Shown here in pieces: positions 46,246-46,333 of a stretch of DNA of 64,000 nucleotides. The notes beneath the pieces are model-generated. The model saw nothing but the letters and a program-made list of their open reading frames with translations, was not told where the DNA came from and ran no database searches. The stretch comes from Patulibacter minatonensis DSM 18081 (GTDB lineage: Bacteria > Actinomycetota > Thermoleophilia > Solirubrobacterales > Solirubrobacteraceae). Position 1 is the first letter of the stretch, and every line of letters starts with the position of its first letter. Where the stretch lies: NCBI RefSeq assembly GCF_000519325.1, contig NZ_KI912613.1:4348469-4412468 (forward strand), given 5' to 3'. The translations under genes and the position numbers were made by a program.

Positions 46246-46322
46246 TGCCCAGGCGCGCGGCGGTATGCGCCATCGCTCCCCGGTGGTCAGTTCCACCTGA
46301 TGGGCGCCAGTCGCGACGGCGC
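46246..46322 (-). promoter_or_regulatory. ZTP riboswitch (pfl motif) upstream of serC-serA
   Basis: On the minus strand the conserved core appears in order: GACTGGCG, an AGGTGG/CCACC hairpin, CCGGGGAGCGA, then CCGC and GCCTGGGC. The outer helix forms fully: GCGCCGTCGC (46322-46313) pairs with GCGATGGCGC (46276-46267), with one G-U pair. The aptamer sits at the 5' end of the leader. A CTCC segment between aptamer and start could pair with the GAGGAG ribosome site, so control may be translational. ZTP signals a shortage of 10-formyl-tetrahydrofolate. Confidence 0.85.
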
Positions 46323-46327
46323 GGCCG

Positions 46328-46333
46328 AGTCTA
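46328..46333 (-). promoter_or_regulatory. -10 box of the serC-serA operon
   Basis: TAGACT on the minus strand. The predicted start near 46321 places the ZTP aptamer at the very 5' end of the mRNA. Confidence 0.55.

Follow-up and report, generated by a model that had tools for sequence, protein, structure and literature searches.

Riboswitches of the ZMP/ZTP class (pfl motif, Rfam family RF01750) usually act as ON switches: the genes behind them are expressed at higher levels as ZMP/ZTP rises with a shortage of 10-formyl-tetrahydrofolate (10-formyl-THF) (PMC9481103, PMC7266159). This is the usual direction of control in the class (PMC9481103, PMC7484762) and the one found in nearly all described cases (PMC9481103). 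Targets named in the papers examined are purH, fhs, pfl, glyA, folD, other purine and tetrahydrofolate (THF) genes, metH, and moeA (PMC2864571, PMC9481103). Two other leader RNAs are known to precede serC-serA. One is the serC motif RNA, an orphan riboswitch candidate with a ribosome-binding site nearby (PMC7266159); the other is the glycine riboswitch, which occurs there with T-box-Ser and brings serine synthesis under riboswitch control (PMC9481103). We found no publication that states a link between the ZTP riboswitch and serC or serine biosynthesis; the 2015 paper on the class and its supplements may tabulate serC.

Here we describe an RNA of this class in front of serC-serA in a 64-kb stretch of Patulibacter DNA (the window). 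It resembles known ZMP/ZTP riboswitches in its full-length aptamer, with all helices and the invariant core and pseudoknot, and in the one-carbon metabolism of its neighbor genes; it differs from them in its target. Very probably, this RNA is a ZTP riboswitch through which a shortage of 10-formyl-THF increases the expression of serC-serA.

Results

The serC leader contains a complete ZTP aptamer

All 4227 families of Rfam 15 were searched with cmscan over the whole window at gathering thresholds. Two matches exceeded their thresholds, RF01750 at serC and an unrelated TPP riboswitch. The RF01750 match (E of 1e-7) spans model positions 1 to 86 of 86, and its score of 62.3 bits lies well over the cut-off of 39. 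The original prediction had recognized a pfl/ZTP core of three motifs, and these are indeed present in the right order: GACTGGCG (46312-46305), CCGGGGAGCGA (46283-46273), and GCCTGGGC (46254-46247). The complete 10-base outer helix that had also been proposed, P1, is present as well and forms ten pairs in the window, one of them G-U. In relatives, the outermost three pairs fall out of register, though lengths vary and the alignment is weak at that end.

For comparison with the aptamer of the window we used 72 distinct serC aptamers of other family members, with a median of 75% identity to it. The core, P3, and the pseudoknot are invariant or nearly so, and P2 and P3 are paired in 71 to 72 of the 72 relatives. 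Inner P1 pairs are kept despite changes on both sides (for example, C-G 44 versus U-A 19 and U-A 42 versus C-G 13), and these comparative counts support the inner seven of the window's ten P1 pairs. The pseudoknot strands are pairable in every relative but invariant, and the pseudoknot by itself therefore provides no covariation support. Single-sequence folding energy of the leader gave no signal (z of −0.10), the method being a poor judge of GC-rich pseudoknotted RNA.

Table 1. Features of the serC leader and of the two genes behind it. Positions are those of the window.
Feature	Positions	Strand	Evidence
−10 promoter hexamer TAGACT	46328..46333	−	TANNNT kept at the same place in family leaders
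ZMP/ZTP riboswitch aptamer (RF01750)	46240..46324	−	62.3 bits, gathering threshold 39, full length
P1 helix, 5′ strand GCGCCGUCGC	46313..46322	−	Ten pairs with 46267-46276, one G-U; inner pairs covary, 72 distinct relatives
P1 helix, 3′ strand GCGAUGGCGC	46267..46276	−	Pairs with 46313-46322
Pseudoknot strand GGCG, P1-P2 junction	46305..46308	−	Pairing partner CGCC 46252-46255; able to pair in 72/72 distinct serC aptamers
P2 helix, 5′ strand GGUGG	46293..46297	−	Covariance-model match and relatives' alignment
P2 helix, 3′ strand CCACC	46282..46286	−	Covariance-model match and relatives' alignment
P3 helix, 5′ strand GCC	46259..46261	−	Paired in 72/72
Pseudoknot strand CGCC, P3 loop	46252..46255	−	Relatives' alignment
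P3 helix, 3′ strand GGC	46247..46249	−	Relatives' alignment
Pyrimidine-rich linker from aptamer to start codon, presumed expression platform	46215..46239	−	Sequence; without terminator
Shine-Dalgarno GAGGAG of serC	46219..46224	−	Sequence; GAGGA-type in most relatives
serC, phosphoserine transaminase, 388 aa	45048..46214	−	TIGR01366 serC_3, 589.7 bits, cut-off 401.65
serA, phosphoglycerate dehydrogenase, 537 aa	43419..45032	−	TIGR01327 PGDH, 599.2 bits, cut-off 454

The genes that the aptamer had been said to head were confirmed as serC by TIGR01366 and as serA by TIGR01327. They are separated by 15 bases. The closest named SerC proteins (88 and 83% identity) are encoded in metagenome assemblies of Patulibacter. 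The gene divergent from serC encodes an M32 carboxypeptidase (46441-47919, plus strand); between it and the serC promoter lies a GC-rich inverted repeat, GGACCCC...GGGGTCC (46346-46369). Elsewhere in the window, the TPP riboswitch (RF00059; 14970-15076, minus strand), whose 55.7 bits are barely above the cut-off of 54.3, lies at the start of thiC (13590-14981, minus strand; Pfam ThiC_Rad_SAM, 601.7 bits), an ordinary arrangement.

A second copy precedes glyA

The genome of the window, a single contig, contains RF01750 twice: in the serC leader and at G000:C1:3207133-3207216. The second copy ends 25 bases 5′ of the gene for a 427-aa protein that matches the Pfam serine hydroxymethyltransferase family and is thus GlyA. 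These are the only two sites, so that at the search threshold none lies at a purine gene, folD, or fhs of this genome. At serC-serA as at glyA, the RNA sits as expected of the class, on the coding strand in the 5′ leader of a gene of purine or one-carbon metabolism.

The aptamer is conserved with serC in the family

To survey the family, 121 of its genomes were used, and a SerC search gave 97 orthologous places at which the gene start was covered. The motif of the serC leader is kept in relatives: an aptamer lies shortly upstream of serC, on the same strand, in 73 of the 97 and in all six from the window's genus. Directly after serC comes serA in 55 of the 73 aptamer-bearing loci, and 9 of the other 18 are too short to tell. 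At least one RF01750 site is present in 81 of the 121 genomes. There are 122 sites in total, and the first gene after them, as assigned by tblastn, is serC in 73, glyA in 43, and serA in 4 cases; two sites are unassigned, one of them cut by a contig end. Counted by genome, 37 have a site at serC alone and 36 at both serC and glyA (one of these with an additional unassigned site), three at serA and glyA, one at serA alone, and four at glyA without a serine gene.

No aptamer was found at 24 of the 97 family serC genes. When 20 of these leaders were searched again, no RF01750 match appeared at E up to 5, which speaks against a hidden degenerate aptamer in those 20. All four serA sites belong to genomes of a single genus (g21) in which serC lacks the aptamer; the switch thus occupies either one serine gene or the other. 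To us, this is good evidence for serine synthesis itself being the target.

One genome carries a third RF01750 copy (G083:C114:10418-10499), whose 3′ flank resembles the serC leader of the same genome. Neither serC, glyA, nor serA follows it, and it looks like a duplicated leader severed from its gene.

The leaders share a −10 element

A −10 box belonging to the leader itself was part of the original prediction, and the family bears it out. A TANNNT hexamer lies no more than 25 bases 5′ of the aptamer in 71 of 71 serC leaders and 43 of 43 glyA leaders, nearly always 11 to 18 bases before the GACTGGCG core. The 114 upstream stretches of 60 bases hold 116 such hexamers in total, nearly all at the fixed spot. 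Two bases before the hexamer, 89% of family leaders have G; the window has T there and G one base before. The stretch around the −10 is conserved in serC and glyA leaders of the family (YYYGCTANNCTC), without a −35 signal, and a sigma-70 promoter scan that required a −35 found nothing at the serC leader. Given the fixed place of TANNNT and the G in front of it, the serC and glyA leaders are probably transcribed from their own extended −10 promoters, with a start close to the first base of P1.

The linker is short and lacks a terminator

The distance from the aptamer end to the start codon is 25 bases in the window and 21 to 46 bases in 70 family serC leaders. In family glyA leaders it is 15 to 40 bases, usually with a GAGGA-type Shine-Dalgarno sequence. 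An intrinsic terminator search of the window's serC leader returned no terminator-like site, and long U runs are absent from the 70 listed family serC linkers.

Accessibility and strand exchange were assessed with folding models that cannot treat the pseudoknot. In these models, the serC Shine-Dalgarno sequence, which pairs mainly with the linker, was unpaired at 0.27, compared to 0.34 with shuffled linkers (p about 2e-4), and it became slightly more open when the aptamer was held folded (0.33 versus 0.27). In glyA leaders, accessibility was the same with the aptamer held folded. Invasion of the P3/pseudoknot strand by the linker found no support, as this pairing was no greater than with shuffled linkers, and the models yielded no clean alternative structure. 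Since there is no terminator and the Shine-Dalgarno sequence lies inside a short linker, control of translation is likeliest, and we infer that the serC leader acts as a translational ON switch.

The serC target is largely confined to one lineage

To see how far the link to serC extends, samples of the phylum (296 genomes) and of the class (199 genomes) were searched for RF01750 at E up to 0.001. Outside the family, these samples contained 118 genomes with a SerC orthologue and 49 RF01750 sites, and only one serC-aptamer pair, in a genome of the same taxonomic order (G496). Among named serC leaders, all six scanned from Patulibacter, Solirubrobacteraceae, and Solirubrobacterales carry the aptamer; none was found at 14 serC loci from other actinobacteria (Nocardia, Nocardioides, Actinomadura, Rhodococcus, Amycolatopsis, and others). 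With 1 aptamer at 118 serC orthologues outside the family, serC is the less common target that had been supposed, and serC targeting is, on this genome comparison, a lineage-specific use of a known riboswitch class in Solirubrobacterales.

Translated neighbors, read by eye, place the outside-family sites mostly before glyA and also before folD and purH-type or IMP-cyclohydrolase-like genes. In several genomes of one other family of the same class (f4; L254 and relatives), RF01750 precedes the gene for a protein (~474 aa) that carries a 2Fe-2S domain (Fer2_4) at its N terminus. This protein, perhaps part of a formate dehydrogenase, is absent from the ZTP targets named in the literature examined. 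A further site (L236, G391:C21:7087-7172) lies before genes that, by eye, encode a ModE-like regulator and a tungstate- or molybdate-binding-like protein, a neighborhood reminiscent of moeA, to which tandem ZTP switches have been linked.

Discussion

A complete aptamer of the ZTP class lies on the coding strand directly before serC-serA, is conserved with serC in the family, and has its own promoter. From this and from the known members of the class, we infer ZTP binding, the ON direction, and the level of control at serC. In the proposed mechanism, a shortage of 10-formyl-THF would let the AICAR nucleotides ZMP and ZTP accumulate, and their binding to the aptamer would lock P3 and the pseudoknot. 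With the aptamer locked, the serC Shine-Dalgarno sequence would stay free and ribosomes would translate serC and serA. The higher serC-serA output would divert more 3-phosphoglycerate to serine, from which GlyA, under the second copy of the switch, would transfer a one-carbon unit to THF.

The same riboswitch might act on transcription instead of translation, through a terminator or Rho. The best-studied ZTP riboswitches do work by termination (PMC7484762, PMC10907184), and the C-rich, G-poor linker would suit Rho. We consider this unlikely at serC, where the leader has no terminator-like site and the aptamer and start codon are so close together, and where long U runs are missing from the linkers of relatives as well. 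It is more doubtful still that the aptamer is an OFF switch through which ZTP would lower serC-serA expression. A tandem OFF case of the class has been reported before moeA (PMC9481103), and our folding tests gave no clear platform structure that would speak for either direction; metabolic sense opposes such a switch, as serine feeds 10-formyl-THF, and so do its occurrence together with glyA, which the class commonly targets, and the ON direction of nearly all described cases (PMC9481103).

The chance that the leader holds a different RNA, or resembles the ZTP aptamer by accident, is negligible. The serC motif and the glycine riboswitch both occur before serC-serA elsewhere (PMC7266159, PMC9481103), but the former is a separate RNA family, the latter senses glycine and is a predicted OFF switch (PMC9481103), and neither matched the serC leader at its gathering threshold. 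RF01750 was the sole family of the 4227 above cut-off here, and its conservation in 73 family serC leaders, together with the bit score, rules out a chance match.

The reading that we prefer is thus a ZTP-responsive switch that would turn on translation of serC-serA. For the family as a whole, we lean toward the view that the ZTP alarm has been redirected, with the serine supply (serC-serA, or serA alone in the absence of an aptamer at serC) together with glyA as its principal and most widely conserved target. Folate stress would then directly open the branch from glycolysis to serine, by a switch made of a promoter, the aptamer, and a linker of ~25 bases, with no recognizable alternative hairpin. 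In one genus the aptamer has moved from serC to serA, which suggests control of serine synthesis itself rather than of a particular gene. With their very short linkers, the leaders of this family are good objects for studying ZTP switching without a terminator, and Solirubrobacterales offer a clear lineage for testing ZTP control of serine synthesis. Through such control, the ZTP alarm would act further upstream, not only where one-carbon units are used but also where serine, their donor, is made.
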